A DNA stretch of 64,000 nucleotides from assembly GCF_023721795.1 (NCBI RefSeq), contig NZ_JAMQYE010000001.1:2825671-2889670 (forward strand), given 5' to 3'. The notes under the pieces were generated by a model. The model was not told the DNA's origin and searched no databases. It was given only the letters and a program-made list of their open reading frames with translations. Below are positions 3,556 through 57,423 of this stretch, in pieces. The translations under genes were made by a program, and so were the position numbers. This DNA is from Zeimonas sediminis. GTDB lineage: Bacteria > Pseudomonadota > Gammaproteobacteria > Burkholderiales > Burkholderiaceae_E. Each line of letters starts with the position of its first letter. The first letter of the stretch is position 1.

Positions 3556-4908
<1,353 letters not shown>

Positions 4909-5196
4909 ATGTCGCTCACATCGTCCGACGTCCAGCGCATCGCGACGCTCGCCCGCATCGAACTCGATGCCGACGAGGCCGCCCGCACGCTCGAGCAGCT
5001 CAACGCCGTGTTCGGCCTGATCGAGAAGCTCCAGTCGGTCGACACGACCGGCGTCGAGCCGATGACCCATGCGCGGGAACTCGCGCTGCGGCTTCGCGAC
5101 GATGCGGTCACCGAGCCGGACCGCCGCGACGACTACCAGGCGGTGGCCCCGGCGGTCGAGCGCGGCCTCTACCTGGTCCCCCGGGTCATCGAATGA
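4909..5196 (+). CDS. gatC: Asp-tRNA(Asn)/Glu-tRNA(Gln) amidotransferase subunit C
   Basis: A 95-residue GatC, the small subunit that wraps around GatA and stabilises the GatCAB complex. This complex converts misacylated Glu-tRNA(Gln) or Asp-tRNA(Asn) to the correct amide. Family features are the opening [13 protein letters not shown], the helix [14 protein letters not shown], the proline-containing VEPMTHA and the ending PRVIE. The frame is open upstream, but ATG 4909 is chosen because the family consensus begins there. The stop overlaps an ATG at 5193 (ATGA). Confidence 0.96.
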
Positions 5197-5234
5197 TTCG
5201 ACCGGTGCCCGCGCGGGCGCCGGCTGCCGACGAC

Positions 5235-6683
5235 ATGAACCTAGAAACCGCCTCCCTCCGGCAACTTCGCGCGGCCCTCGATGCCGGCGAAACGACCGCC
5301 GAAGCGCTCGCCAGGGCCTTCCTCGATCGCATCGCGGCCAGCGACCTTAACGCCTTCATCGACGTGCGGCCCGAGCTCACGCTCGCGCAGGCCCGCGAGG
5401 CCGACGCCCGGCTCGCGCGCGGCGAGCGCGGCCCGCTGCTCGGCATCCCGGTCGCGCACAAGGACATATTCGTGACCCGCGGCTGGCGATCGACCGCCGG
5501 CTCGCGGATGCTCGCCGACTACGTGAGCCCCTTCGACGCCGCCGTCGTCGAGCGGCTGGCCGCCGCCGGCGCGGTCTGCCTGGGCAAGACCAACTGCGAC
5601 GAGTTCGCGATGGGCGGCGCGAACGAGAACTCGTGGTTCGGCCCGGTCCGCAACCCCTGGGACCGCAACGCGATCGCCGGGGGATCCTCCGGCGGCGCGG
5701 CGGCGGCGGTGGCCGCGGGGCTGGCGCCGCTGGCCACCGGCACCGACACCGGCGGCTCGGTGCGCCAGCCGGCCGCGATGTGCGGCGTCACCGGCATCAA
5801 GCCGACCTACGGCCGCGTGTCGCGCTACGGCATGATCGCTTTCGCGTCGAGCCTCGACCAGGGCGGTGCGATGGCGCGCAGCGCAGAGGACTGCGCCGCG
5901 CTGCTCACCGCGATGGCCGGCTTCGATCCGCGCGACTCGACCAGCGTCGAGGAGGCCGCCGAGGACTTCTCCCGGAACCTGGACCGGCCGCTCGACGGCC
6001 TGCGCATCGGCGTGCCGCGCGAGTTCATGGGCGAGGGCCTGGCCGACGATGTGCGGGCCGCGGTCGAGCGCGGCCTGGACACGCTGCGCGGGCTCGGCGC
6101 CGCGATCGTCGAAGTCTCGCTGCCCAAGACCGAGCTGGCGATCCCGGCCTACTACGTGATCGCGCCGGCCGAGGCGTCGAGCAACCTGAGCCGCTTCGAC
6201 GGCGTGCGCTACGGTCACCGCGCCGCGCAGTACGCCGACCTGAACGACATGTACCGGCGCACCCGGGCCGAGGGCTTCGGTGCCGAGGTCAAGCGCCGGG
6301 TCCTGATCGGCACCTACGTGCTCTCGCACGGTTACTACGACGCCTACTACCTGCAGGCCCAGAAGCTGCGCAGGCTGATCGCCGACGACTTCCGCGCCGC
6401 CTTCGGGTCGGTGGACCTGATCGCCGGCCCGGTGTCGCCCACCGTGGCGTGGAACCTCGGCGAGCGCACCGACGACCCGGTGCGCAACTACCTGGCCGAC
6501 GTCTATACGCTGCCCGCCTCGCTCGCCGGCCTTCCGGGCCTGTCGATGCCGGCCGGCTTCGGCGAGCAGGGCCGCCCCGTGGGGCTGCAGCTGGTCGGCA
6601 GCTGGTTCGACGAAGCGCGGCTGCTCAACGTGGCGCATCGCTTCCAGCAGGCCACCGACTGGCACCTGAAGGTGCCGGCGTGA
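5235..6683 (+). CDS. gatA: Asp-tRNA(Asn)/Glu-tRNA(Gln) amidotransferase subunit A
   Basis: The glutaminase/amidase subunit of GatCAB, about 482 residues from this start. The Ser-cisSer-Lys catalytic triad of amidases is visible: Lys in IPVAHKDIF (about residue 76), Ser in AGGSSGGAA (about 151) and the nucleophile Ser in [12 protein letters not shown] (about 175). The start at 5235 ([15 protein letters not shown]) fits the usual N-terminus. ATG 5193, overlapping the gatC stop, would add 14 residues and is the alternative if translation is coupled. The stop overlaps the GTG start of the next gene. Confidence 0.96.
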
Positions 6684-15543: not shown

Positions 15544-17058
15544 ATGACGAGGACGGATCCCTACAGCGGCTCGCGCATCGCGCGGGGCGTGATCCACCTC
15601 CTGGGAGGCAAGGCGCTCGTCTCGGTCGCCGGGATCGGGACTTTCCTGGTCCTCGTGCAGGCCCTGCCGGTCGAGCAGTTCGCGGCCTACACGGTGCTCT
15701 TCGCGCTCGTGGAGCTCGTCGATGCCCTCAGCGGGGTCGGCGTGCCGCACGTCCTGGCGCGCTATGTGCCGGAGCTGTACGCCGCGCACAGGAGAAGAAC
15801 GGTGCGACACCTGGTCGTCGTCGCGCTGGCGTTGCGCGGCGCACTGCTCTTCGCCTTCGCCGGCGTGGCCTACCTGCTGGTGCCGGTCGTCGCGCCCATG
15901 GTCGGGCTGACGGGTTGGGAGCCCGCCTTCCGGCTCTATCTGGTCGTCGTCGTCTTGCGCGTGTTCGCGCAGGCCGTGTTCGGAGTCCTCGAGTCGATGC
16001 TGCACCAGAGCCTTGCCCAGCTCGGGGCCGGAAGCGTCACGCTGTCGCGCTTCGTCCTTCTCTGGGGGGCCGCTGCGCAGGCGAAGCTCGACCTGCATCT
16101 CGTGATCCTGATCGAGCTTGCAACCGAAGCTGTCGGCGTTCTGCTGCTGTGCGGCGGACTTGCGCGAACCCTCTCGCTCCGGGCCGATGATGGAGGCGAA
16201 GACGGAGCCGGCTGGGTGCGGGCCAACTTGCGGCGGATGCTCGACTTCGGATTCAAGGGATACCTGCAGCACCTGCTGATCATGCCTTTCGGCGGCGCCG
16301 TCCAGCGCCTGATCGTCGGCGCATCGCTATCGACCGCCGATGTCGCGCTGTTCGGCTTCGCCCGCTCCGTGGCGGACCTCGCTAGGCGCTACCTGCCGGC
16401 AACCATGCTGGCGGGCGTGATCAGGCCCGTCCTCACCGCCCGCTACGTGAGCGATCGGCGGTTCGAGGACCTCGTGAGAGCCGCGAATCTGGTCTTCAAG
16501 GTCAACGCGATCGGGATCTGCCTAGGCATCGTGGTGCTGCACGCCGGCGGCAGGGGGCTGGTCGACGCGGTCACGTCGGCCAAGTACGGGGAGGGCGCCG
16601 TCATCCTGCTGCTGCTGATGCTGGCAGTGCTCCTCGTCTCGTCATTGCGCCTGATGCTGGACCACGTCAGCCACGCCGTCGAGCGAAACGGCCCTCTCGT
16701 CGTTTCCAACGCAGTGATCACGCTCTCGATCCTGCCCGGCATCGCGATCCTGCCCGTGGCTGGCGTCTACGCCCTGCCGCTCAGCAATCTCCTGGGATTG
16801 GGCTTCGGTTGCTTCGTGCTCGTCCGGTGGCTGCGGGCTGGGGGCTTCGACTACCGCTACGATGCAGCGGGGGCGGGAAAGATGTTGCTGGCCTCGGCGG
16901 GTGGCATGGCGGCCGGCCAGGTTTCCACCGCTCTGCAGGCGAACTGGATGCTGTCCGTCGCTTGCGCCGTCCTCGGCTTCGCGGTGGTGGCATTCGCATC
17001 TCGGCCGTTCGACACCGCGGATCGGGCGCTCATGGCGGCGATGTTCAGGCGCCGATAG
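15544..17058 (+). CDS. Wzx-like polysaccharide flippase (MOP/MVF superfamily)
   Basis: A membrane protein of 504 residues with roughly 12-14 hydrophobic segments. It resembles O-antigen and exopolysaccharide flippases that move undecaprenyl-linked units across the inner membrane. It begins TRTDPYSGSRIARGVIHLLGGKALVSVAG, then has LVQALPVEQFAAYTVL and LARYVPELYAA. In the second half are LIVGASLSTADVALFGFARSV and a cytoplasmic cluster RRYLPATM. ATG 15544 is chosen because upstream residues are low-complexity. It is followed by two leftward AlkP genes and then pgaABCD, which suggests that it serves cell-surface polysaccharide. The PNAG pathway itself needs no flippase, so its substrate is probably another glycan. 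Confidence 0.82.
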   Translation: MTRTDPYSGSRIARGVIHLLGGKALVSVAGIGTFLVLVQALPVEQFAAYTVLFALVELVDALSGVGVPHVLARYVPELYAAHRRRTVRHLVVVALALRGALLFAFAGVAYLLVPVVAPMVGLTGWEPAFRLYLVVVVLRVFAQAVFGVLESMLHQSLAQLGAGSVTLSRFVLLWGAAAQAKLDLHLVILIELATEAVGVLLLCGGLARTLSLRADDGGEDGAGWVRANLRRMLDFGFKGYLQHLLIMPFGGAVQRLIVGASLSTADVALFGFARSVADLARRYLPATMLAGVIRPVLTARYVSDRRFEDLVRAANLVFKVNAIGICLGIVVLHAGGRGLVDAVTSAKYGEGAVILLLLMLAVLLVSSLRLMLDHVSHAVERNGPLVVSNAVITLSILPGIAILPVAGVYALPLSNLLGLGFGCFVLVRWLRAGGFDYRYDAAGAGKMLLASAGGMAAGQVSTALQANWMLSVACAVLGFAVVAFASRPFDTADRALMAAMFRRR

Positions 17059-17127: not shown

Positions 17128-18879
17128 TCAAGCCGCCGAGGACTCCGCTTCCGCCGGTTCCAGGTCGGCCTGGAAAAGCGGGCGGCCGTCCAGGTGCGCC
17201 GGCAGTCTGCAGCCCATCAACTGCAGGATGGTCGGAGCGAAATCAACGGCCGCGGCGGTGGGCAGGCTGGTGCCGGCCGCGATGCCTGGACCGGCTGCCG
17301 CGACGAATCCGCGGTTCCAGTGGGTGCCCGCCCGGAAGTGAGGAAAGGGGCCGATGCGCCCGAAGTCGGGGCTGTCGACGACGTCGGTGATCCGCTCGTG
17401 CCAGAGCACGTCGAGGTCGAACTCGGGCAGTTTCGGGTCGTCGGCGAGGCTGTCGCGGCGGGTCCGGTAGACCGCCTTGACCAGGGGCTCGCCCGAGCGG
17501 GCGTCGCGCAGGCGGCGGAGGTGGCCCTCGATCTCGGTGCACAGCGCATCGTAGTCGCCGGGTTCGACGATGCCGTGCGGGTCGCGCCCGCGCAGGTTGA
17601 TGCGGATGCGTCCCTTGGTGAAGCCGGGCAGCGCGAAGGCCTTCATCTTCGGCCACATCGGGCGATACCACATCGCCGGATGCCAGAGCATCTCTTCGTC
17701 CCTGGCCTGGTCGGTGAAGGGGGAGGCGAGGTCGTGGTACGAGCCCTTCAGGAGCGAGCCGGGCAGCCTGGAGCGCACGAACCGGGCGATCGGGCTGGTG
17801 CCGTTGTAGCGGGTCCAGAGTTCGCCGATCCAGGACTTGCGGCGCGGGTGGGTGATCAGGGGGCCCGGCGGGGAGTCGCTGCCGGCGGCGCCGAGGGCGG
17901 CCGAGCCCGGGAAGTTGAAGCGGTAGAGCAGCTCCGAGATCACGACGGAGCTGAGCAGGTCGCTGTAGTTGGGTCCCATGCCGTGCAGGGAGAAGCACAT
18001 CAGCACGGCGTCCGAGGGCGCCTTGGCGGCGATTTCGCCGATCGCCCGGTCGACGTCCTGGTAGGTGCGAAGCAGCAAGTCCTCGGCCGGGCGCTCCGAA
18101 GCGAGGGCCGAGTACAGGGGGTGGTCGGGCTGGCTGAAGCAGTAGACGTCATGGCCGGCGGTGTGGGGCTCGGCGAAGACCGCCAGGAACAGGTCCCAGT
18201 CGTCGCGCTCCATGAGGTCCAGGCAGATCGCGGTGCGCGCGCGCACGCTCGAGGCCAGCGCGCCGTCGAGCCACTTCAGGTAGTCCTTGTCCCACCAGAT
18301 GCCGTTGTCCTTGAAGACCACGGCGTTCTCGCCGTGGCGCCGGCTCAGCTCGTCGAACAGGCCCGCGGGATTCGAGTGGCGGCCGGTCAGCGGATGGTGG
18401 CCGCCCCATCCCAGGACCTGGACGCCGTCGACGCGATCGGACAGGCGGGTGATGGGCAGGTCGAACACCGCGACCTTCCGCTTCTCGCCCAGCGCGTAGA
18501 AGGGCTCGAAGGCGTCGAAGGCCGGCAACCCCTCGTCGATCGTCGAGATTCCGTACTCGCCGGGCGTGTACCGGAAGGCGGACCACGCGCCGGTCTTGTT
18601 CTGGCGGCACCCGGTCGCGAACTCGACCCAGAGCGGCTCGGTCTCGAAGGCCTCGACTCGCTCCCCGTGCAACTCGGCGCTTCCCCGCACCCGTCCGTAT
18701 GCGCCTTCCGTTCGGAGCCTGGCGATGTTCGGCAGATGGCCCTCGGCCATCCACTTCTCGATCAGGACGGGATCGGCAGCATCCAGGCCGATCGCAATCA
18801 CGCGCCGTGCGGGCGGCCGACTGTCGTCGTGCTGGGCAGGTCCTTCGACGCTGGGGCGCGAACGGGGATCGGATCGCAT
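17128..18879 (-). CDS. AlkP-superfamily phosphohydrolase/phosphomutase, copy 1
   Basis: About 583 residues, of the COG3379-like group of type I phosphodiesterase/nucleotide-pyrophosphatase proteins. Seen are the metal-binding opening VIAIGLDAADPVLIEKW and GHLPNIARL, the likely nucleophile Thr in ETEPLWVEFATG, and the later RINLRGRDPHGIVEPGDY. Two metal positions differ from the classic pattern: AEPHTAGHD and FSLHGMGPN stand where xxDxxxH and SDHG are usual. No signal peptide. The frame continues to 18987 upstream; ATG 18879 is preferred but upstream residues are not convincing, and a start closer to VIAIG is possible. A tandem paralogue lies immediately upstream; see the repeat entries. Confidence 0.85.
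   Translation of the reverse strand: MRSDPRSRPSVEGPAQHDDSRPPARRVIAIGLDAADPVLIEKWMAEGHLPNIARLRTEGAYGRVRGSAELHGERVEAFETEPLWVEFATGCRQNKTGAWSAFRYTPGEYGISTIDEGLPAFDAFEPFYALGEKRKVAVFDLPITRLSDRVDGVQVLGWGGHHPLTGRHSNPAGLFDELSRRHGENAVVFKDNGIWWDKDYLKWLDGALASSVRARTAICLDLMERDDWDLFLAVFAEPHTAGHDVYCFSQPDHPLYSALASERPAEDLLLRTYQDVDRAIGEIAAKAPSDAVLMCFSLHGMGPNYSDLLSSVVISELLYRFNFPGSAALGAAGSDSPPGPLITHPRRKSWIGELWTRYNGTSPIARFVRSRLPGSLLKGSYHDLASPFTDQARDEEMLWHPAMWYRPMWPKMKAFALPGFTKGRIRINLRGRDPHGIVEPGDYDALCTEIEGHLRRLRDARSGEPLVKAVYRTRRDSLADDPKLPEFDLDVLWHERITDVVDSPDFGRIGPFPHFRAGTHWNRGFVAAAGPGIAAGTSLPTAAAVDFAPTILQLMGCRLPAHLDGRPLFQADLEPAEAESSAA
17327..18282. repeat. 956-bp identical tract, copy A (inside AlkP copy 1)
   Basis: Reading line by line I found no difference between this tract and 19238-20193, at a constant offset of 1911 bases. 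Sequence divergence appears sharply on both sides: a few changes within 80 bases beyond the left edge, and many beyond the right edge. The tract covers roughly the C-terminal two thirds of both AlkP genes. Confidence 0.92.
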
Positions 18880-19008
18880 TGGCTTCCCGAGCGCGCCGCT
18901 ACAAGGCGCGCAGATGATTTCGGCGGGGCGGATATGTCCACGATCATGATCGCATACCCTTGCCGTCCCGCCCGTGACGGACGTCACTCCGGGGGGCGCC
19001 TAGCGATC

Positions 19009-20724
19009 TCAGGCCGATTGGCAGACCGGCCCGGTGGATGGTGTTTCCGCGGGCGAAAGCCCTCCAGACGGCACTTTCCTGGGGAAGAGGGGTACGCCAT
19101 CCATGTGGCCGGGGACCGGGCATCCCAGGAACTGAAGAATGGTGGCCGGCAGGTCGACCGCCGCGGCGGTGGGCAGGCTGGTGCCGGCCGCGATGCCCGG
19201 ACCGGCTGCGGCCACGAATCCGCGGTTCCAGTGTCCGCCCGCCCGGAAGTGAGGAAAGGGGCCGATGCGCCCGAAGTCGGGGCTGTCGACGACGTCGGTG
19301 ATCCGCTCGTGCCAGAGCACGTCGAGGTCGAACTCGGGCAGTTTCGGGTCGTCGGCGAGGCTGTCGCGGCGGGTCCGGTAGACCGCCTTGACCAGGGGCT
19401 CGCCCGAGCGGGCGTCGCGCAGGCGGCGGAGGTGGCCCTCGATCTCGGTGCACAGCGCATCGTAGTCGCCGGGTTCGACGATGCCGTGCGGGTCGCGCCC
19501 GCGCAGGTTGATGCGGATGCGTCCCTTGGTGAAGCCGGGCAGCGCGAAGGCCTTCATCTTCGGCCACATCGGGCGATACCACATCGCCGGATGCCAGAGC
19601 ATCTCTTCGTCCCTGGCCTGGTCGGTGAAGGGGGAGGCGAGGTCGTGGTACGAGCCCTTCAGGAGCGAGCCGGGCAGCCTGGAGCGCACGAACCGGGCGA
19701 TCGGGCTGGTGCCGTTGTAGCGGGTCCAGAGTTCGCCGATCCAGGACTTGCGGCGCGGGTGGGTGATCAGGGGGCCCGGCGGGGAGTCGCTGCCGGCGGC
19801 GCCGAGGGCGGCCGAGCCCGGGAAGTTGAAGCGGTAGAGCAGCTCCGAGATCACGACGGAGCTGAGCAGGTCGCTGTAGTTGGGTCCCATGCCGTGCAGG
19901 GAGAAGCACATCAGCACGGCGTCCGAGGGCGCCTTGGCGGCGATTTCGCCGATCGCCCGGTCGACGTCCTGGTAGGTGCGAAGCAGCAAGTCCTCGGCCG
20001 GGCGCTCCGAAGCGAGGGCCGAGTACAGGGGGTGGTCGGGCTGGCTGAAGCAGTAGACGTCATGGCCGGCGGTGTGGGGCTCGGCGAAGACCGCCAGGAA
20101 CAGGTCCCAGTCGTCGCGCTCCATGAGGTCCAGGCAGATCGCGGTGCGCGCGCGCACGCTCGAGGCCAGCGCGCCGTCGAGCCACTTCAGGTACTCCTTG
20201 TCCCACCAGATGCCCGTGTCCTTATGGAAGATCGCGTTCCGGCCGTGGCGCTCCGTCAATTCGGAAAGCAGCGCCCGCGGTACGGAGTGCCTTTCGGTGT
20301 GAGGGAAGTGCCCGCCCCATCCCAGGACCTGGATTCCGTTGACGCGATCGGACAAGCGGGTGATGGGCAGGTCGAACACCGCGACCTTCCGCTGCTCGCC
20401 CAGCGCGTAGAAGGGCTCGAAGGCGTCGAAGGCGGGCAGTTCCTCGTCGATTCGCCTGACCCGGCCGGTGGCGGGGGAGAAGCTCGTCGAGTCCCAGGCT
20501 CCCGAACTCGTCGGGTTGCAGCCCGTCACGAAATCGACCCAGAGAGGCTCCGTGGCGAACAATTCCATCTGCTCGCCACGGAACTCGACGGTGCTCTTCA
20601 GGCGTCCGTAGGCACCGGCATTCCGGATCCTGGCGAGGTTGGGCAGATGGCCCCCATCCATCCATCTCTCTACGAGGACGGGGTCGGCGGCATCCAGGCC
20701 GATCGCGATCACGGGCTGAGACAT
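19009..20724 (-). CDS. AlkP-superfamily phosphohydrolase/phosphomutase, copy 2
   Basis: About 571 residues, a tandem paralogue of the gene at 17128. It begins SQPVIAIGLDAADPVLVERW with ATG 20724 and has the same nucleophile region (FATEPLWVDFVTG) and the same unusual AEPHTAGHD and FSLHGMGPN motifs. The N-terminal third differs from copy 1 at many residues, for example CNPTSSGAWDSTSF against CRQNKTGAWSAFRY, while the rest is identical. The last 40 residues differ again (FLGCPVPGHMDGVPLFPRK). The pair is collinear on the minus strand, 129 bases apart. Substrate unknown; the context suggests a phosphate-bearing polysaccharide or precursor. Confidence 0.86.
   Translation of the reverse strand: MSQPVIAIGLDAADPVLVERWMDGGHLPNLARIRNAGAYGRLKSTVEFRGEQMELFATEPLWVDFVTGCNPTSSGAWDSTSFSPATGRVRRIDEELPAFDAFEPFYALGEQRKVAVFDLPITRLSDRVNGIQVLGWGGHFPHTERHSVPRALLSELTERHGRNAIFHKDTGIWWDKEYLKWLDGALASSVRARTAICLDLMERDDWDLFLAVFAEPHTAGHDVYCFSQPDHPLYSALASERPAEDLLLRTYQDVDRAIGEIAAKAPSDAVLMCFSLHGMGPNYSDLLSSVVISELLYRFNFPGSAALGAAGSDSPPGPLITHPRRKSWIGELWTRYNGTSPIARFVRSRLPGSLLKGSYHDLASPFTDQARDEEMLWHPAMWYRPMWPKMKAFALPGFTKGRIRINLRGRDPHGIVEPGDYDALCTEIEGHLRRLRDARSGEPLVKAVYRTRRDSLADDPKLPEFDLDVLWHERITDVVDSPDFGRIGPFPHFRAGGHWNRGFVAAAGPGIAAGTSLPTAAAVDLPATILQFLGCPVPGHMDGVPLFPRKVPSGGLSPAETPSTGPVCQSA
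19238..20193. repeat. 956-bp identical tract, copy B (inside AlkP copy 2)
   Basis: Partner of 17327-18282 with no mismatch seen by eye. A second shorter stretch of near identity, about 18397-18526 against 20310-20440, lies further toward the gene starts and includes the codons for FDLPITRLSDRV. Patches of identity separated by diverged sequence are what gene conversion leaves. Confidence 0.92.
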
Positions 20725-21103: not shown

Positions 21104-23545
21104 ATGTTCCCCAGACCTTCGAGCTTGCGTTTCACGGCGCTGGCGGCCGCAGTCTGCGTCGCGCTGGGTGCCGATGCGGCCTTCGCGCAGGCGTCGGATC
21201 AGCACGCCGCTGCCGTCGCCCGCGCCCGCGCGGGCGACCACGCCGGCGCGCTGGCCGAACTCGATGCGCTGGCCGCGCAACGCCCCGGCGATCGCGCGGT
21301 CCTGTTCGACCGGATCGTCGTGCTGGGCTGGGCCGGCCGCGACGCCGAGGCGCTCGCCCGCGCTTCCGGCCTGGACCTGGCCGGCGCGCCCGCCTACGTC
21401 TACGAGGCGCTCGGCCGCTCCGCCCGAAACCTGAAACGCTACGAACTGGCGCAGTCGTTGTATCGCCGCTCGATGGCGCTGCATCCGGATCGCGCCGACA
21501 GCCGGATCGGGCTCGCGATGACCTTGTCCGACCTGGGCGACCACGCCGCCGCGGCCAGGCTGCTCGACGAGGCGCTCGCCGCCGCGCCGGGCTCGGCGGA
21601 CCTGCTCGAGGCTCGCGGGCTGGCCGCCGAGTATTCCGGCGACTGGCTCGGCGCGCTGGCCTTCCACCAGAGGGCGCTCAGGGCCGATCCGGCGCGCCGC
21701 GACGCGCTGCGCGGCGTCGTCCGCGCGGCCGGCCGGCTCGGCGCGCCGCAGCTGGCCGCCGACCTGGCCGGGCGCCACCCGGGCCTGATCGACGCGGCCG
21801 AAGCGCGCGCGCTCGCCGACGATGCCTCGGCCCTGCAGATCCGCTGGGGGCGCATCGAGGAGCGCGTCGAGACCGGCGATGCGCGTTTTGCGTGGATCGA
21901 CCGCGCGCTGCGGCACAGCGAGCCGGTCGCGCAGAGGCTGGCCGGCGCCGGTGAAGCCGCCGCGGCGACCGCCGCCGGCTTCGACGAGGCCGATCGCCGG
22001 CTGCTCGCCGATCGACTGGTGGCGCTCGGGCTGCGCAAGCGCCACGAGGAGGCGGTCGGGCTGCACGACGAGATGGTCGCCGCCGGCATGCAGGTGCCGG
22101 CCTACGCGCGCGGGTCGGTCGCGGATTCGCTGCTGGCGCTGCGCCGCCCGGAGCAGGCGATCGTTCTCTTCCGCGAGGCGCTCGCGGCGCAGCCCGACGA
22201 TTTCGGCCTCTCCCTCGCGCTCTTCTTCGCGCTGGTCGAAGCCGAGCGGATCGACGAGGCGACCGATCACATCGACGCGCTGGCCGCCCGCACCCCGAAG
22301 TGGCTGCGCGGCCGGGCGAACCACGATGCGGTGACCGCGCGCACCGCGCAGGCGCTCGCCAGGCTCTACGGCGACCGGCTCGATCAGGCCGAATCGCGAA
22401 GCCGGGGGCTGTCGACCGAGCTGCCCTACAACGCGCAGGTCCGCGAGGCCTTCGCTGCGACCGCGCTGGCCCGCGGCTGGCCGAGGCTGGCCGACGAGGA
22501 GTTCCGCCGCGCGATGGCGGTGGACCCGACCAGCGCCGGCCTGCGGGCGCAGCGCGTCGCGCCGCTGCTCGACGTGCACGCCTGGGACGAGGCGCGCGCC
22601 GAGCTCGAGGCGGCGAGCGCGATGCGGCCCGACGATCATCGCGTGCGCCGGGCGGCCGACCTGTGGGCGGTGCACGGCCTGCGCGAGATCGAGGCATCCG
22701 CCGCCTGGGGCACCTCGGGCGGCGCGACGCCCACCGGCACCGACGACTGGCGCGCCGAGGCGAGGCTCTACACGAGGCCGCTGGCGACGAACTGGCGGGT
22801 CTTCGGCCAGGCGCTGCGCGCGCGCGCCGAATTCGACGACGGCGTGGCCCGCTGGCATCGCGAGGGCGCCGGGCTGGAGTACCGGGCCCGCGACCTGCGC
22901 CTGGCCGGCGCGGTCACCGACGGCTCGGCCGACCGGATCGGGATCGAGGCCTCGGCGGCCTGGCAGCTCGACGATCGCTGGTCGCTGGACGCGCAGGCCG
23001 CGAGCGTCAGCAGCAACCTGCCGCTGCAGGCATGGAAGGCGGGCGTGCGCGCGAGCGAGGCCGCGCTGGGTGCGCGCTACGCGGTCAACGAATCGCGCGG
23101 CTTCGGCGTCGGACTGTCACGCATGGACTTCAGCGACGACAACCAGCGCGACCGCTGGTGGGCGTCGTGGTTCGAGCGCTGGGTGTCCGAGCCGCGCTGG
23201 CGGCTCGAGTCGACCGCCGCGATCGGCGGGTCGAGCAACTCGCTGGCCGGCGCGCCCTACTTCAATCCCGGCAGCGACCTGACCGCGAGCGTCGAGGTGG
23301 CCGGCGAATGGCTGAACTGGCGTCGCTACGAGCGGCAGTTCAGCCAGCGCTTCGCGGTCACGCTGGGCAGCTACGCGCAGGAGGGCTACGGCAGCGGCTC
23401 GATCGTCGGCGCGACGTACGAGCACGTGTGGGAGCTCGATCGGCGGCTCTACCTGAGGTACGGGATCGGGCGGGTGCTGCGCCCCTACGACGGCGAGCGC
23501 TCGGGCCGCAGCCATGCCCACGTCGTGCTGGACGGGAGGTTCTGA
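21104..23545 (+). CDS. pgaA: Poly-beta-1,6-N-acetylglucosamine export porin
   Basis: An 813-residue outer-membrane protein, close to the length of E. coli PgaA. A signal peptide (about 1-28, ending DAAFAQA) is followed by a long TPR region with repeats such as YELAQSLYRRSMALHPD and EALAAAPGSADLLEARGLA. The last 300 residues form a beta-barrel rich in alternating aromatic residues (WRVFGQALRARAEF, WWASWFERWV) and end in Phe (VVLDGRF), the outer-membrane insertion signal. It exports PNAG and binds PgaB. First gene of pgaABCD, and its stop is one base before the pgaB ATG. Confidence 0.93.
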   Translation: MFPRPSSLRFTALAAAVCVALGADAAFAQASDQHAAAVARARAGDHAGALAELDALAAQRPGDRAVLFDRIVVLGWAGRDAEALARASGLDLAGAPAYVYEALGRSARNLKRYELAQSLYRRSMALHPDRADSRIGLAMTLSDLGDHAAAARLLDEALAAAPGSADLLEARGLAAEYSGDWLGALAFHQRALRADPARRDALRGVVRAAGRLGAPQLAADLAGRHPGLIDAAEARALADDASALQIRWGRIEERVETGDARFAWIDRALRHSEPVAQRLAGAGEAAAATAAGFDEADRRLLADRLVALGLRKRHEEAVGLHDEMVAAGMQVPAYARGSVADSLLALRRPEQAIVLFREALAAQPDDFGLSLALFFALVEAERIDEATDHIDALAARTPKWLRGRANHDAVTARTAQALARLYGDRLDQAESRSRGLSTELPYNAQVREAFAATALARGWPRLADEEFRRAMAVDPTSAGLRAQRVAPLLDVHAWDEARAELEAASAMRPDDHRVRRAADLWAVHGLREIEASAAWGTSGGATPTGTDDWRAEARLYTRPLATNWRVFGQALRARAEFDDGVARWHREGAGLEYRARDLRLAGAVTDGSADRIGIEASAAWQLDDRWSLDAQAASVSSNLPLQAWKAGVRASEAALGARYAVNESRGFGVGLSRMDFSDDNQRDRWWASWFERWVSEPRWRLESTAAIGGSSNSLAGAPYFNPGSDLTASVEVAGEWLNWRRYERQFSQRFAVTLGSYAQEGYGSGSIVGATYEHVWELDRRLYLRYGIGRVLRPYDGERSGRSHAHVVLDGRF

Positions 23546-23546
23546 G

Positions 23547-25523
23547 ATGTTCGCGAGAGCCCTGTCCCGGTTCGCGGCGATGCTGGCGCTCGCGCTGCTG
23601 GCTGCGGCGCCCCTGACGTCCGCGGCGCGCGCGCCCGGCATCCCGCCCGGAGCCTTCGTCGCGCTGTCCTATCACGAGGTGCCCGAGGACGGCCCGCGCG
23701 AGGCGGCGCCCGGCGCCGGCCGCTACGGCGTCGAAGTGTCGGCGCTGGTCGCGCAGTTCTCATGGCTGCGCGAGAACGGCTACCGTCCGGTCAGCCTGTC
23801 CGAGATCGCCGAGGCCCGCGCCGGCGGCAAGCCGCTGCCGCCGAAGGCGGTGCTGCTGAGCTTCGACGACGGCTACGCCGACTTCTACCACCGCGTCTAC
23901 CCGCTGCTGCAGCTGTTCCGCTATCCGGCGGTGATCGCGCTGGTCGGCAAGTGGATGGACGCGCCGGCCGGCACGCAGGTCGACTACGACGGCAGGCCGA
24001 TGCCGCGCGAGGCCTTCCTGAGCTGGGCGCAGGTGCGCGAGATGGCCGGCTCCGGCCTGGTGGAAGTCGCCTCGCATTCGTACGACCTGCACCGCGGCGT
24101 TCGCGGCAATCCTCAGGGCAACCTGCAGCCGGCGGCCACGACGCGCATCTTCGACCCCGCCAGCGCCCGCTACGAAACCGACGAAGCCTGGCTCGGCCGC
24201 GTGCGTGCGGACCTCGAGCGCAACAGCGCGCTGATCGAGCGCGAGACCGGCAAGCGGCCGCGCGCCGTCGTCTGGCCCTACGGTCGCTACAACGGCGCGC
24301 TGCAGCAGGTCGCGCGCGAGCTCGGCATGCCGATGATGCTGACGCTGGAGGGCGGGCCGAACCTTGCCGGCGCGCCGCTGGACCGGATCCGGCGGATCAT
24401 CGTCGAGTTCAACCCGGAGCTCGGCGCCTTCGTCGACGAGATCGAGCAGGTCTGGCCCGAGGACCCGCAGCGCGTGGTCCACGTCGATCTCGACTACGTC
24501 CACGATCCGGACCCCGAGGCCCAGGAGCGCAACCTGTCCGCCCTGCTCGACCGGATCCAGGCGATCCGCCCGACGACCGTCTACCTGCAGGCCTTCGCCG
24601 ACCCCGACGGCGACGGCGAGGCCGACGCGCTGTACTTCCCGAACCGGCACCTGCCGATGCGCGCCGACCTGTTCAACCGGGTCGCCTGGCAGCTCGAGAC
24701 CCGGGTCGGCGTGCGGGTCTACGCGTGGATGCCGATGCTGGCCTTCCGGCTGCCCGACGGCCATCCGGCGCGCGACGACCTGGTGCAGGCGGTGCGCGGC
24801 GAGGCGGGCTCGAGCTACCGCAGGTTGTCGCCGTTCTCCGCCCGGGCCCGCGCCACGATCCGGGACATCTACGAGGACCTCGGCCGGCACGCCCATTTCG
24901 CCGGCCTGCTGTTCCACGACGACGGCCTGCTCGGCGACCGCGAGGACGCGAGCGACGCGGCGCTGGCCGTCTATCGCGAGCGCTGGGGCCTGCCGGCCTC
25001 GGTCGACGCGATCCGCGCGGATGCCGGCCTGGCGGGCCGCTGGGCGGACCTGAAGACGGACTGGCTGGTCGACTTCAGCCGCGAGCTCGCCGACGCCGCC
25101 GGGCGCTTCACCGCGCCGCTCAAGACAGCTCGCAACCTGTACGCGGCGCCGGTCCTCGACGCCGACGCCAAGGCCTGGTTCGCGCAGTCGCTGCCGGCCT
25201 TCCTGCGCGGATACGACCACGTGGCGCTGATGGCGATGCCGTACATGGAGGGCGCCGCCGAGCCCCGCCGCTTCCTGTCCTCGCTGGTCGAGGCCGTCGC
25301 GGCGCAGCCCGAGGGCCTGAAGCGGACCGTGTTCGAGCTGCAGGCGCGCGACTGGCGCGGCCGGCGCGAGGTGCCCGCGGCCGAGCTGGCCGCCTGGATC
25401 CGCCAGCTGGAGCTCGCCGGCGCCACGAACGTCGGCTACTACCCCGACGATCCCCATGCCGGCGTGCCCGCGCTGGGCGCGCTGGTGCCGGCCTTCTCCG
25501 TCCGCTCCCTGCCGCAGCCGTAG
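23547..25523 (+). CDS. pgaB: Poly-beta-1,6-N-acetylglucosamine N-deacetylase
   Basis: A two-domain periplasmic enzyme of 658 residues. The N-terminal NodB deacetylase domain has the metal and base motifs LLSFDDGYADFYHR and VASHSYDLHRG and WPYGRYN. The C-terminal half (from about residue 310, VVHVDLDYVHDPDPEAQ) is the glycoside-hydrolase-like PNAG-binding domain, with VYLQAFADPDGDG and AGLLFHDDGLL. PgaB partially deacetylates PNAG before export through PgaA. Unlike E. coli PgaB there is no lipobox cysteine: the leader MLALALLAAAPLTSAARA looks like an ordinary signal peptide. The ATG directly follows the pgaA stop. Confidence 0.94.
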   Translation: MFARALSRFAAMLALALLAAAPLTSAARAPGIPPGAFVALSYHEVPEDGPREAAPGAGRYGVEVSALVAQFSWLRENGYRPVSLSEIAEARAGGKPLPPKAVLLSFDDGYADFYHRVYPLLQLFRYPAVIALVGKWMDAPAGTQVDYDGRPMPREAFLSWAQVREMAGSGLVEVASHSYDLHRGVRGNPQGNLQPAATTRIFDPASARYETDEAWLGRVRADLERNSALIERETGKRPRAVVWPYGRYNGALQQVARELGMPMMLTLEGGPNLAGAPLDRIRRIIVEFNPELGAFVDEIEQVWPEDPQRVVHVDLDYVHDPDPEAQERNLSALLDRIQAIRPTTVYLQAFADPDGDGEADALYFPNRHLPMRADLFNRVAWQLETRVGVRVYAWMPMLAFRLPDGHPARDDLVQAVRGEAGSSYRRLSPFSARARATIRDIYEDLGRHAHFAGLLFHDDGLLGDREDASDAALAVYRERWGLPASVDAIRADAGLAGRWADLKTDWLVDFSRELADAAGRFTAPLKTARNLYAAPVLDADAKAWFAQSLPAFLRGYDHVALMAMPYMEGAAEPRRFLSSLVEAVAAQPEGLKRTVFELQARDWRGRREVPAAELAAWIRQLELAGATNVGYYPDDPHAGVPALGALVPAFSVRSLPQP

Positions 25524-25529
25524 GTGAAC

Positions 25530-26798
25530 ATGAGCACGACCATCGCATCGATCGGCGAAGCGCTCGCGGACTTCGCGTTCTACTACCCGCTGTTCATGGC
25601 CTGGCTGTGGATGGCGGGCGCGCTGTTCTACTGGTTCCACTACGAGCGTCGCGGCGGCAAGCCGCACGAGCCGCCCCCGCTCGACGAGTTCCCGAGCGTC
25701 GCCGTGGTCGTGCCGTGCTTCAACGAGGAGGCGCACGCCGACGAGACGATCGGGTGGCTGATGAAGTCGAGGTACCCCAACCTCGAGGTGATCGCGGTGG
25801 ACGACGGCAGCACCGACGACACCGGCGCGGTGCTCGAGCGGCTCGCGGCGCGCTACCCCTCGCTCAGGGTGGTGCGCCTGCTGCGCAACCAGGGCAAGGC
25901 GGCCGCGCTGAACACCGCGGCCACGATGACCCATGCCGAGATCCTCGTCTGCATCGACGGCGATGCGCTGCTCGATCCGTGGGCGATCCACTGGATGGTC
26001 TGGCACTTCCGCTGGCCGCGGGTCGGCGCGGTCACCGGCAACCCGCGTGTGCGCACCCGCTCGACGCTGCTCGGCCGGCTGCAGATCGGCGAGTTCTCGT
26101 CGACGATCGGCCTGATCAAGCGCGCCCAGCGCACCTACGGCCGGGTGTTCACCGTGTCGGGCGTCGTCGCGGCCTTCCGCCGCAGCGCGCTGCACGACGT
26201 CGGCTACTGGAGCACCGACATGCTGACCGAGGACGTCGACATCTCGTGGAAGCTGCAGGCGCGCCACTGGGACGTGCGCTTCGAGCCGAACGCGCTGTGC
26301 TGGATCCTGATGCCCGAGACGTTGCGCGGCCTGTGGAAGCAGCGGCTGCGCTGGGCGGCGGGCGGCATGCAGGTGCTGAAGAAGAACCTGCTGCCGATGC
26401 GGGCCTGGCGGCAGCGGCGGATGTGGCCGGTTTTCCTCGAGTACCTGCTGAGCGCCTTCTGGGCCTACACGATGCTCGGCCTGTTCCTGGCGTGGACGCT
26501 GCGGGTCGTGTTCGGCATTCCCACGCCGATCGAGGGCGCCTCGCTGATCCCGAGGTGGCCGGGAGTGGTCATCGGCACGACCTGCCTGCTGCAGATCGGA
26601 ATCGGCATGCTGCTCGACCACCGGATCGAGAAGGGCCTTTTCCGCTACTACTTCTGGATGATCTGGTATCCGCTGGCCTTCTGGCTGCTGAGCGCGCTGA
26701 CGACGGTCGTCGGCGTGCCGAAGGCCCTCTTCCGCACGACAGGGAAACGCGCAAGATGGAAAAGCCCCGACCGGGGACTGCTTCCCCAAGACCGCTGA
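25530..26798 (+). CDS. pgaC: Poly-beta-1,6-N-acetylglucosamine synthase
   Basis: A processive family-2 glycosyltransferase of about 422 residues that polymerises UDP-GlcNAc in the inner membrane. Motifs: VVVPCFNEEAHAD, VIAVDDGSTDDT, the DxD-like CIDGDALLD, the acceptor motif LTEDVDISWK and the QRLRWAAGG product-binding motif. Hydrophobic helices lie at the start (about 10-35) and at the end (about 300-400). A GTG at 25524, directly after the pgaB stop, would add two residues. The last 43 bases overlap pgaD. In E. coli PgaC and PgaD together bind cyclic di-GMP. Confidence 0.95.
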   Translation: MSTTIASIGEALADFAFYYPLFMAWLWMAGALFYWFHYERRGGKPHEPPPLDEFPSVAVVVPCFNEEAHADETIGWLMKSRYPNLEVIAVDDGSTDDTGAVLERLAARYPSLRVVRLLRNQGKAAALNTAATMTHAEILVCIDGDALLDPWAIHWMVWHFRWPRVGAVTGNPRVRTRSTLLGRLQIGEFSSTIGLIKRAQRTYGRVFTVSGVVAAFRRSALHDVGYWSTDMLTEDVDISWKLQARHWDVRFEPNALCWILMPETLRGLWKQRLRWAAGGMQVLKKNLLPMRAWRQRRMWPVFLEYLLSAFWAYTMLGLFLAWTLRVVFGIPTPIEGASLIPRWPGVVIGTTCLLQIGIGMLLDHRIEKGLFRYYFWMIWYPLAFWLLSALTTVVGVPKALFRTTGKRARWKSPDRGLLPQDR

Positions 26799-40399: not shown

Positions 40400-41703
40400 C
40401 CGGCATCGAGATCGGCGCGGTCGCGATCGTGCTGATGCTGCTCGCCGTCTACTTCGGCATGCACATCGGCATCGCGCTGATGGCGGTGTCCTTCGTCGGG
40501 ATCTGGCTGCTCAAGAGCCCGGAGCTTGCGGCCAGGATGATCGGCGCGGCGGCGAGCGACTCGATCCGCGAGCACCTGTTCGGCGTGGTGCCGCTGTTCG
40601 TGCTGATGGGCATCCTGGTCTCGGTCTCGCAGCTCGGCCGCGACACCTTCGACGTCGCCCAGCGGGTCTTCGCCCGCCTGCGCGGCGGGCTCGGCGTGGC
40701 CACGGTGGCCGCCAACGCGGTGTTCGCCGCGATCACCGGCATCTCGATCGCGTCGGCCTCGGTGTTCACCAAGGTGGCGGTGCCGGAGATGGTCCGGCAC
40801 GGCTACACCGGCCGCTTCGCGGTGGGCACGGTCACCGGCAGCTCGGTGCTCGGCATGCTGATCCCGCCATCGCTGCTGTTCATCGTCTACGGCGTGCTCG
40901 CCGAGGAGTCGGTGGGCCGGATGTTCATGGCCGGCGTCGTGCCGGGGCTGATCCTGGGCCTCGCGTTCTCGCTGATGATCGTGCTGATGGCGATCTTCAC
41001 CCCGGGTTTCGTCGGCCGCACCGACGCGGTCGCGATCGAGCCCGAGCCGCTGGCGCGCACGCTCGCGAAGGGCGCGCCGGTGGTCGGGCTGGTCGTGCTG
41101 GTGCTCGGCGGCCTGTACGGCGGCATCTTCACGCCGACCGAGGCGGGCGCCGTCGGCGCGCTCGGCGCGCTGCTGATCGCGGTGGCCAGGCGGCGGCTCG
41201 ACGGTCGCAAGCTCTGGCAGACGCTGATCGAGACCGGCCATGTGTCGGTGTCGGTGCTGTTCCTGATCGTGGCGGCGAGCCTGTACTCGCGGATGCTGGC
41301 GCTGAGCGGCATCCCGGCGGCGATCGGCACCTCGATCGTCGACCTGGGCCTGGGGCCCACCGGCTTCGTGATCGCCTACATCGGCGTCGTGCTGCTGCTC
41401 GGCTGCATCATCGACTCGATCTCGATCATGCTGATCGTGCTGCCGATCGTGCTTCCGATCGCGCGCGACTTCGGCATGGACATCATCTGGTTCGGCGTCA
41501 TCACCGTGGTGGCGGTCGAGATCGGCCTGCTCACGCCACCCTTCGGGCTGTCGGCCTACACGGTGCAGGCCACGCTGAGGGGCTCGAGCATCGGCATCCG
41601 CGACATCTTCATCGGGACCGCGCCCTTCGTGCTGTGCATGCTCGCGGTGCTCGGCCTGATCGTGGCGTTTCCGTCGCTGGCCACCTGGCTGGCCTACCTG
41701 TAG
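40396..41703 (+). CDS. TRAP transporter large permease (DctM family)
   Basis: A 435-residue ion-coupled permease with about 12 membrane segments. DctM phrases seen are PLFVLMGILVSVSQLGRDTF, ITGISIASASVFTKVAVPEM, LGMLIPPSLLFIVYGVLAEE and GIFTPTEAGAVGALGALL. It completes the TRAP system. The frame is open upstream to 40279, but ATG 40396, overlapping the dctQ stop, fits the family and the coupling. Confidence 0.95.
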   Translation: MTGIEIGAVAIVLMLLAVYFGMHIGIALMAVSFVGIWLLKSPELAARMIGAAASDSIREHLFGVVPLFVLMGILVSVSQLGRDTFDVAQRVFARLRGGLGVATVAANAVFAAITGISIASASVFTKVAVPEMVRHGYTGRFAVGTVTGSSVLGMLIPPSLLFIVYGVLAEESVGRMFMAGVVPGLILGLAFSLMIVLMAIFTPGFVGRTDAVAIEPEPLARTLAKGAPVVGLVVLVLGGLYGGIFTPTEAGAVGALGALLIAVARRRLDGRKLWQTLIETGHVSVSVLFLIVAASLYSRMLALSGIPAAIGTSIVDLGLGPTGFVIAYIGVVLLLGCIIDSISIMLIVLPIVLPIARDFGMDIIWFGVITVVAVEIGLLTPPFGLSAYTVQATLRGSSIGIRDIFIGTAPFVLCMLAVLGLIVAFPSLATWLAYL

Positions 41704-56136: not shown

Positions 56137-57423
56137 TCAGCGCGCGCGCATGCTGGCCGGCAGCCAGAGCGCGATCTCCGGCCAGACCATGACCAGCGCC
56201 ATCACGCCGATCATCAGCAGCACGTAGGGCGCGGCGCCACGCACGATCTCGGCCATCGGCGCCTGGGTGATCGCCTTGATCGTGAACAGGTTCATGCCGA
56301 CCGGCGGCGTGATCTGGGCGAGCTCGAGGTTGATGACCAGCAGCACGCCGTACCAGATCGGGTTGATGCCCAGGTGCATCATCGCCGGCAGGATCACCGG
56401 CGTGGTGATCAGGATGATCGCGATCGACTCGAGGAACATGCCGAGCACGAAGATCAGCGCCATCATCACGATCAGGAAGCCCGCCACGCCGATGTCGGCC
56501 GCGATGATCGCCTCGACGATCTGCTGCGGGATCCGCATCTTGGTCAGCACGTGCCCGAACACCGAGGCGCCGGCCAGGATCATGAACAGCATCGCCGACA
56601 CGCGGCAGGCGTCGACCGCCGAGTCCCAGACGTCGCGCAGGCCGATCGTGCGGTAGGCGAAGGCCGCGATCGCGAGCGCCAGCCACGCGCCAGCGGCGGC
56701 CGCCTCGGTGGCGGTGAAGATCCCTGCGTACATGCCGCCCAGCACGAAGACCGGCAGCGAGATCGCCCAGAGCGCCTTGCGGATCGCGGCGAGCGCCTCG
56801 CGCAGGCTCGCGCGCGGCTCGCGCTGCACGTGCCGGTGGGCGATCGCGGTGCGCAGCATGCTCCAGGCGACGAACACGCCGGCCATCAGCAGGCCCGGCA
56901 CGATGCCGGCCATGAACAGACCGCCGATCGAGGTGTCGGTGGTCACGCCATAGAGCACCATCGGCCCCGACGGCGGGATCAGGATGCCCAGCGTGCCGCC
57001 GGCGGCCACCAGGCCGTAGGCCACCTTCGGCTCGTAGCCGAAGCGGATCATCTGCGGAATCGCGACCGCGCCGATCGTCAGCGCGGTGGCCACGCTCGAG
57101 CCCGAGATCGCCGCGAAGATCGTGCATGCGGCGATCGTGGCGATGCCCAGCCCGCCCGGCAGGTGGCGGGTCAGCGTGTAGGCGGTGTTGTACAGGTCGT
57201 CGACGATCCTGCCTCGGATCATCACGTGCGCCATGAACGCGAACAGCGGGATCGCGACCAGCAGGTAGCGGTTGATCTCGCCGAAGATCACCTCGGTCAC
57301 CGAGCCGATCTCGCCCTGCGTGGCGAGCAGCAGCGCGCCGCCGTACAGCGCCAGCCCGGCGAAGATCGGCAGGCCGGTGAACAGCAACAGCAGCAGGCCG
57401 GCGAAGAGCAGCGCGATCGTCAT
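56137..57423 (-). CDS. TRAP transporter large permease (DctM family), second system
   Basis: A 428-residue ion-coupled permease with about 12 helices. DctM phrases: NRYLLVAIPLFAFMAHVMIR, AISGSSVATALTIGAVAIPQ, LGILIPPSGPMVLYGVTTD and GIFTATEAAAAGAWLALAI. ATG 57423 overlaps the stop of the small permease (ATGA). Third gene of a leftward dctP-dctQ-dctM set next to a CaiB-type CoA-transferase. Confidence 0.94.
   Translation of the reverse strand: MTIALLFAGLLLLLFTGLPIFAGLALYGGALLLATQGEIGSVTEVIFGEINRYLLVAIPLFAFMAHVMIRGRIVDDLYNTAYTLTRHLPGGLGIATIAACTIFAAISGSSVATALTIGAVAIPQMIRFGYEPKVAYGLVAAGGTLGILIPPSGPMVLYGVTTDTSIGGLFMAGIVPGLLMAGVFVAWSMLRTAIAHRHVQREPRASLREALAAIRKALWAISLPVFVLGGMYAGIFTATEAAAAGAWLALAIAAFAYRTIGLRDVWDSAVDACRVSAMLFMILAGASVFGHVLTKMRIPQQIVEAIIAADIGVAGFLIVMMALIFVLGMFLESIAIILITTPVILPAMMHLGINPIWYGVLLVINLELAQITPPVGMNLFTIKAITQAPMAEIVRGAAPYVLLMIGVMALVMVWPEIALWLPASMRAR

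Follow-up and report, generated by a model that had tools for sequence, protein, structure and literature searches.

Gene conversion between paralogues and the chemistry of the alkaline phosphatase superfamily both have reference cases. For conversion of the tuf genes of Salmonella, one study gives a fitted length of about 1000 nt when mismatch repair is absent, with more than 96% of the tracts being contiguous (PMC5485169). For the superfamily, another report lists the two-zinc ligands of NPP3 as D168, T206, D326, H330, D373, H374 and H483 and describes these seven as strictly conserved across NPP and alkaline phosphatase (PMC6052110). Here we describe two tandem genes, A and B, in a 64,000-nucleotide stretch of the Zeimonas sediminis genome (the window). 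A and B are very probably ancient paralogues between which about 1 kb was copied by homologous recombination.

We compared A and B base by base at a fixed offset of 1911 (Table 1). Positions 17326-18282 equal 19237-20193, giving 957 bp without any mismatch and 978 bp with one (18283). An earlier note on this DNA had claimed 956 bp of identity, which holds, with its start at 17327 one base late. The copies differ at 173 of 1634 ungapped sites, and 172 of these differences fall among the 656 sites (26%) outside the 978-bp tract. Mismatches in the neighbouring stretches number 29/77 at 17172-17248, 41/97 at 18304-18400 and 91/283 at 18523-18805; the tail beyond the tract has diverged, as the note had said. 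It had also described patches ending sharply in diverged sequence. This is true of the N-terminal side, where the difference rises at once to 42%, but not of the tail side, where it rises in steps (8%, then 38%). The second short patch that it had placed near 18397-18526 exists as 18401-18522, not as an exact match but with 5/122 mismatches. When 173 differences were shuffled over 1634 sites, the longest identical run in 10,000 shuffles was 150 bp, as compared to the observed 957, and a 122-bp window with five or fewer differences never occurred in 10,000 shuffles of the 502 N-side sites. When the window was compared with itself by BLASTN (E 1e-10), the A/B pair aligned at 90% over 1601 bp; the other pair listed, 40674-41436 and 56407-57166, is inverted and 66% alike over 792 alignment columns.

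Table 1. Positions in the window of the two tandem copies, the stretches they share and the adjoining convergent gene.
Feature	Coordinates	Strand	Description
Copy A	17128..18879	minus	AlkP-superfamily (PF01663) protein, 583 aa, ATG at 18879; longest open frame from 18987
Copy B	19009..20724	minus	Paralogue of A, 571 aa, ATG at 20724; longest open frame from 20871
Main conversion tract in A	17326..18303	minus	Exact over 17326-18282; sole mismatch 18283 in 978 bp
Main conversion tract in B	19237..20214	minus	B residues about 171-496
Second patch in A	18401..18522	minus	5/122 differ; older or partial; B partner 20312-20433
Second patch in B	20312..20433	minus	Partner of A 18401-18522
Edge stretch in A	17249..17325	minus	6/77 differ, synonymous 0.18, intermediate identity; B partner 19160-19236
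Edge stretch in B	19160..19236	minus	Partner of A 17249-17325
Convergent flippase-like gene	15544..17058	plus	PF01943, 22.1 bits, under cut-off 28.2

A search of the genome (3 contigs, the window's being 3.25 Mb) with A returned three matches: A, B and a third copy, C (C1:3052431-3054083), about 206 kb from B. Outside the shared stretches, the synonymous difference in the N-terminal part is 0.54 for A-B (44.3/81.5), 0.57 for A-C and 0.68 for B-C. The corresponding values are 0.60 (14.0/23.3), 0.63 and 0.55 in the mid part and 0.85 (16.5/19.5), 0.53 and 0.74 in the far tail. Within the tract A and B show 0/238.3 synonymous differences (95% upper limit 1.25%), and each differs from C by 0.53 (128.4/241 for A-C). 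The A-B difference is 2.0/30.5 in the patch, where the values to C are 0.49 (A, 14.5/29.8) and 0.53 (B), and 3.8/21.3 in the edge, where they are 0.63 (A, 13.0/20.5) and 0.73 (B). Judged against C, the A/B pair looks as old as A/C, and only tract, patch and edge are young. Divergence along the length is thus non-uniform and zero only in the tract. Because both flanks of the tract are diverged, a recent whole-gene duplication is excluded as the sole event, and because tract, patch and edge have all diverged between A and C, constraint does not explain the A/B identity. Near-zero synonymous divergence with definable edges inside diverged paralogues, and identity above what constraint explains, are the marks of gene conversion. 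The conversion proposed in the earlier note is upheld, since A-B, A-C and B-C are about equal outside the tract and A-B is zero inside it.

We built trees of 51 family rows separately for the tract and the outside-tract parts. A, B and C group together in both (SH-aLRT 100). Path lengths outside the tract are 1.18 for A-B, 1.10 for A-C and 0.90 for B-C, and within the tract 0.003 for A-B and 0.71 for A-C. A and B are paired outside the tract (unstarred support 79) and within it (99), and AU tests reject neither other pairing (p about 0.77 and about 0.43-0.44, respectively). As these topology tests do not discriminate, the case for conversion rests on the divergence along the gene. In the full alignment (49 rows, two long rows omitted), A, B and C are nested among cyanobacterial rows. 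Forcing the 42 cyanobacterial rows together without A, B and C costs 53.4 log units (p-AU 0.002, a value weakened by the choice of this test after the two partial trees were known). Genomes of the class to which a Xenococcaceae cyanobacterium belongs supplied these 42 rows, together with plasmid records of Nostoc and Planktothrix.

At E <=1e-30 the family occurs in 3/73 other genomes of the taxonomic family, 2/398 of the order, 3/368 of the class and 0/397 sampled from the phylum. These sampled sets overlap; the matches come from seven distinct genomes and share 30-38% identity with A, B or C (tblastn). Within the class of cyanobacterial G1174, 33 of 242 genomes (G1174 counted) have a match at E <=1e-150, 13 of these 33 having two to four matches and two having adjacent pairs. 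A search of 72,556 plasmid records at 1e-5 gave 19 matches, with no identity above 60%; the best are cyanobacterial, and others come from haloarchaea. The family is mostly cyanobacterial in the genomes searched, and the gene in this lineage was probably acquired horizontally. With present sampling, the likeliest history is one horizontal acquisition followed by duplication; an unsampled lineage is a possible donor. On plasmid p1 of Planktothrix agardhii PCC7805 (4761-6403), a family gene is apparently split into three annotated hypothetical proteins, and in Planktothrix strain No.365 it is annotated as a single gene. Viral contigs gave 79 pattern matches and no relatives, and a PADLOC search for defence systems gave no families for A and B at E 0.01.

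We scanned 17 within-genome pairs, three in the window's genome and 14 in seven cyanobacterial genomes; the 17 are the pairs among the rows retrieved, a smaller set than all pairs in the 13 multi-copy genomes. No tract comparable to that of A/B occurs in any of the 14, the longest exact runs being 9-38 bp. Adjacent or near-adjacent pairs are also found in cyanobacteria: L065 (G1240), L066 (G1192) and L009, with a GT2 gene between the copies in the Xenococcaceae locus. The 38-bp run belongs to the G1192 tandem pair and was reached by 3/2000 shuffles, which is weak after 14 pairs; the adjacent L065 pair (longest run 14) and the L009 pair (22) have no tract. Homogenising this part of the gene is hence no rule of the family, and we rejected a general tendency of the family to convert, as all 14 lack long tracts.

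We propose that A, B and C descended from a single gene gained by the lineage, the grouping being given by the trees, the acquisition supported by them and the donor inferred. About 1 kb of one tandem copy would have been written into the other by homologous recombination without crossing over, and the exact 957-bp block would be the trace of that copying. Both the patch (Fisher 8.5e-5) and the edge (Fisher 8.3e-7) are more diverged than the main tract, pointing to more than one conversion event; to judge from this higher divergence, they are most likely leftovers of at least one earlier conversion. A single conversion with patchy mismatch repair is less likely, given that more than 96% of tracts in Salmonella were contiguous (PMC5485169). 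The hints on the direction of copying conflict, as GC points toward A (0.698 in the tract, 0.689 in the N-terminal part of A and 0.653 in that of B) and branch lengths relative to C fit slightly better for B. The A/B pair was found in none of 17 other genomes of the genus searched. The block was probably produced by neutral recombination driven by proximity, and it is a clean new instance of an already known process.

Similar middles, one of which was overwritten by the other during consensus building, would give the same picture, and a repeat of about 1 kb with copies only 1.9 kb apart is a setting in which short reads mis-map. We consider such an assembly or polishing artefact improbable: the contig's length in a 3-contig genome suggests long reads, and overwriting should have erased the scattered differences that patch and edge retain. 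Even then the two middles would have to have been much closer to each other beforehand than the ends were, and conversion would still be needed, only an older one. An identical core with diverged ends would likewise follow from a recent tandem duplication in which the N-terminal part and tail of one copy were later replaced from a diverged relative. This history is less probable still, as it requires two separate replacements, a patch left between them and a donor. The A/B amino-acid differences are even between the copies relative to C, and A, B and C group at support 100 against 48 other rows in the outside-tract tree, making a donor from outside the trio unlikely.

Protein-level constraint on AlkP cores is general, and one could suppose that purifying selection on the DNA or RNA sequence kept the core identical without recombination. 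Nothing specific speaks for this and we give it almost no weight: at synonymous sites this core is 53% different from C, a comparison on which we rejected identity by selection alone, and exact runs in the 14 pairs elsewhere are short. Conversion between the tandem copies remains our preferred reading.

The earlier note had further supposed that the catalytic C-terminal part is held the same as the N-terminal parts specialise. This is not supported, since putative active-site residues are found both inside and outside the tract. D11 and T58 of B are in the divergent N-terminal part, H217, H221 and H277 are within the tract and H498 is three bases outside, so the tract does not match the catalytic part. 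At columns without gaps in any of the three copies, A and B differ in 76 amino acids; A equals C in 24 of these, B equals C in 24 and all three differ in 28. By this symmetry neither copy looks specially altered, and the lack of asymmetry relative to C speaks against specialisation of one copy.

Both proteins match PF01663 (A 44 bits, B 50.8 bits; cut-off 23). An AlphaFold2 model of B (pLDDT 84.6, pTM 0.88) has the AlkP fold, and its Foldseek matches include ENPPs, Xac NPP and PhnA; the first 50 have E 2e-11 to 2e-9, TM 0.39-0.47 by query and 11-15% identity. When B is aligned to PhnA, the first Asp of the latter falls on D11 and its Thr, the nucleophile, on T58. At the canonical D, T, D, H, D, H, H positions B would carry D11, T58, H217, H221, L276, H277 and H498, an assignment that is partly motif reading or weak profile alignment. 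D11 and T58 come from alignments to PhnA and, by profile, to a relative; H217 in place of Asp is a motif reading that the profile alignment with the relative does not bear out; L276 lies opposite the Asp of an SDHG-bearing relative in a profile alignment that is itself weak (probability 24.5, E 8e-4). The seven "canonical" rows of that alignment were motif-picked, with two alike and some probably in wrong frames, and only the first part and the SDHG part were used. Among the 51 family rows D11 is kept in 49, H217 in 51, H221 in 50, H277 in 45, H498 in 51 and E59 in 48. Position 58 is Thr in 23 and Ala in 20, and position 276 is Asp in 1, Ala in 19, Val in 17 and Leu in 9. These alignments point to the loss of at least one canonical metal ligand in B (position 276), and the family seems to be without some Asp metal ligands of NPP and alkaline phosphatase. 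Sequence searches of the PDB with the middle part were unproductive, and NCBIfam gave PhnA alone, far under its cut-off. No description of this AlkP-fold family was found in the literature searched, which is no proof of absence.

Gene neighbourhoods point to a role for the family in surface polysaccharide. A and B are flanked by the flippase-like gene on one side and, on the other, by a pgaA/pgaB-like pair with a GT2 gene after it, and this flippase-like gene is 55% identical to one in the polysaccharide cluster next to C. That cluster holds a group 1/4 glycosyltransferase, Wzz, an AAA_31 ATPase (as in BY-kinases), more glycosyltransferases and a bacterial sugar transferase. Within the window, 21104-26798 encodes a PgaA barrel domain protein, a deacetylase + GHL13 (PgaB-like) protein and a GT2, as in the PNAG operon. 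The Xenococcaceae locus has a flippase-like gene in addition to its two family copies and the GT2 gene, and the copy on the Nostoc plasmid is surrounded by genes for a sugar transferase, GT2, a flippase, an O-antigen ligase and a tyrosine autokinase. We scanned 20 neighbour proteins from 12 of 17 listed cyanobacterial loci (E 1e-5) and found a glycan-type gene at most two genes away in all 12 scanned loci; 4 of the 20 neighbours were of other kinds or unmatched (transposase, DUF2079, hexapeptide transferase, one without match). Proteobacterial relatives give a mixed picture: L024 and L026 adjoin GT2 genes and L022 a glycosyltransferase and ATP-grasp genes; the neighbours are ATP-grasp at L021, recQ and an iron alcohol dehydrogenase at L025, and an AMP-binding protein and a methyltransferase at L023. 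The Planktothrix copy adjoins nadB and asnB, which does not fit a polysaccharide role. From these neighbourhoods, the A and B proteins most likely work in surface-polysaccharide assembly. By eye, the short N-terminus of B has no obvious signal peptide, which makes a cytoplasmic step likelier.

The A/B locus offers a clean natural partial gene conversion with a yardstick, a third paralogue, in the same genome, and older and younger conversion stretches are distinguishable in it. From the exact 957-bp direct repeat one would predict that an in-frame deletion of 1911 bp, joining the front of B to the tail of A, could form readily. The protein family is the more open matter and, to us, of more interest than the conversion event, as it recurs in polysaccharide clusters and its metal site may be altered. 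We offer only as a speculation, with the odds against it, that this is an undescribed, mostly cyanobacterial AlkP-fold family of Wzx/Wzy-type clusters whose di-zinc site was rebuilt around three or four histidines and whose Thr nucleophile was often lost. It would perform a new cytoplasmic step of polysaccharide assembly, with repeated conversion within the tandem pair shuffling mosaic forms of it.

The proteins resemble NPP and PhnA of the alkaline phosphatase superfamily in fold, in PF01663 and in the aligned Asp (D11) and Thr (T58); they differ in their low identity (11-15%), in two Asp ligands that are seemingly replaced and in a Thr kept in just 23/51 family rows. As in the long-lasting concerted evolution of prokaryotic paralogues (PMC6053082), paralogues of one genome are more alike than expected, but the A/B case is partial and recent, covers part of each gene and has no relative showing recurrence. 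A close parallel is Salmonella tufA/tufB (PMC5485169), in which paralogues on one chromosome are likewise homogenised over a contiguous tract of about 1 kb. Unlike tufA and tufB, A and B are in tandem and otherwise diverged (172/656, 26%), and their conversion is inferred from a natural genome whereas the tuf event was selected in the laboratory.
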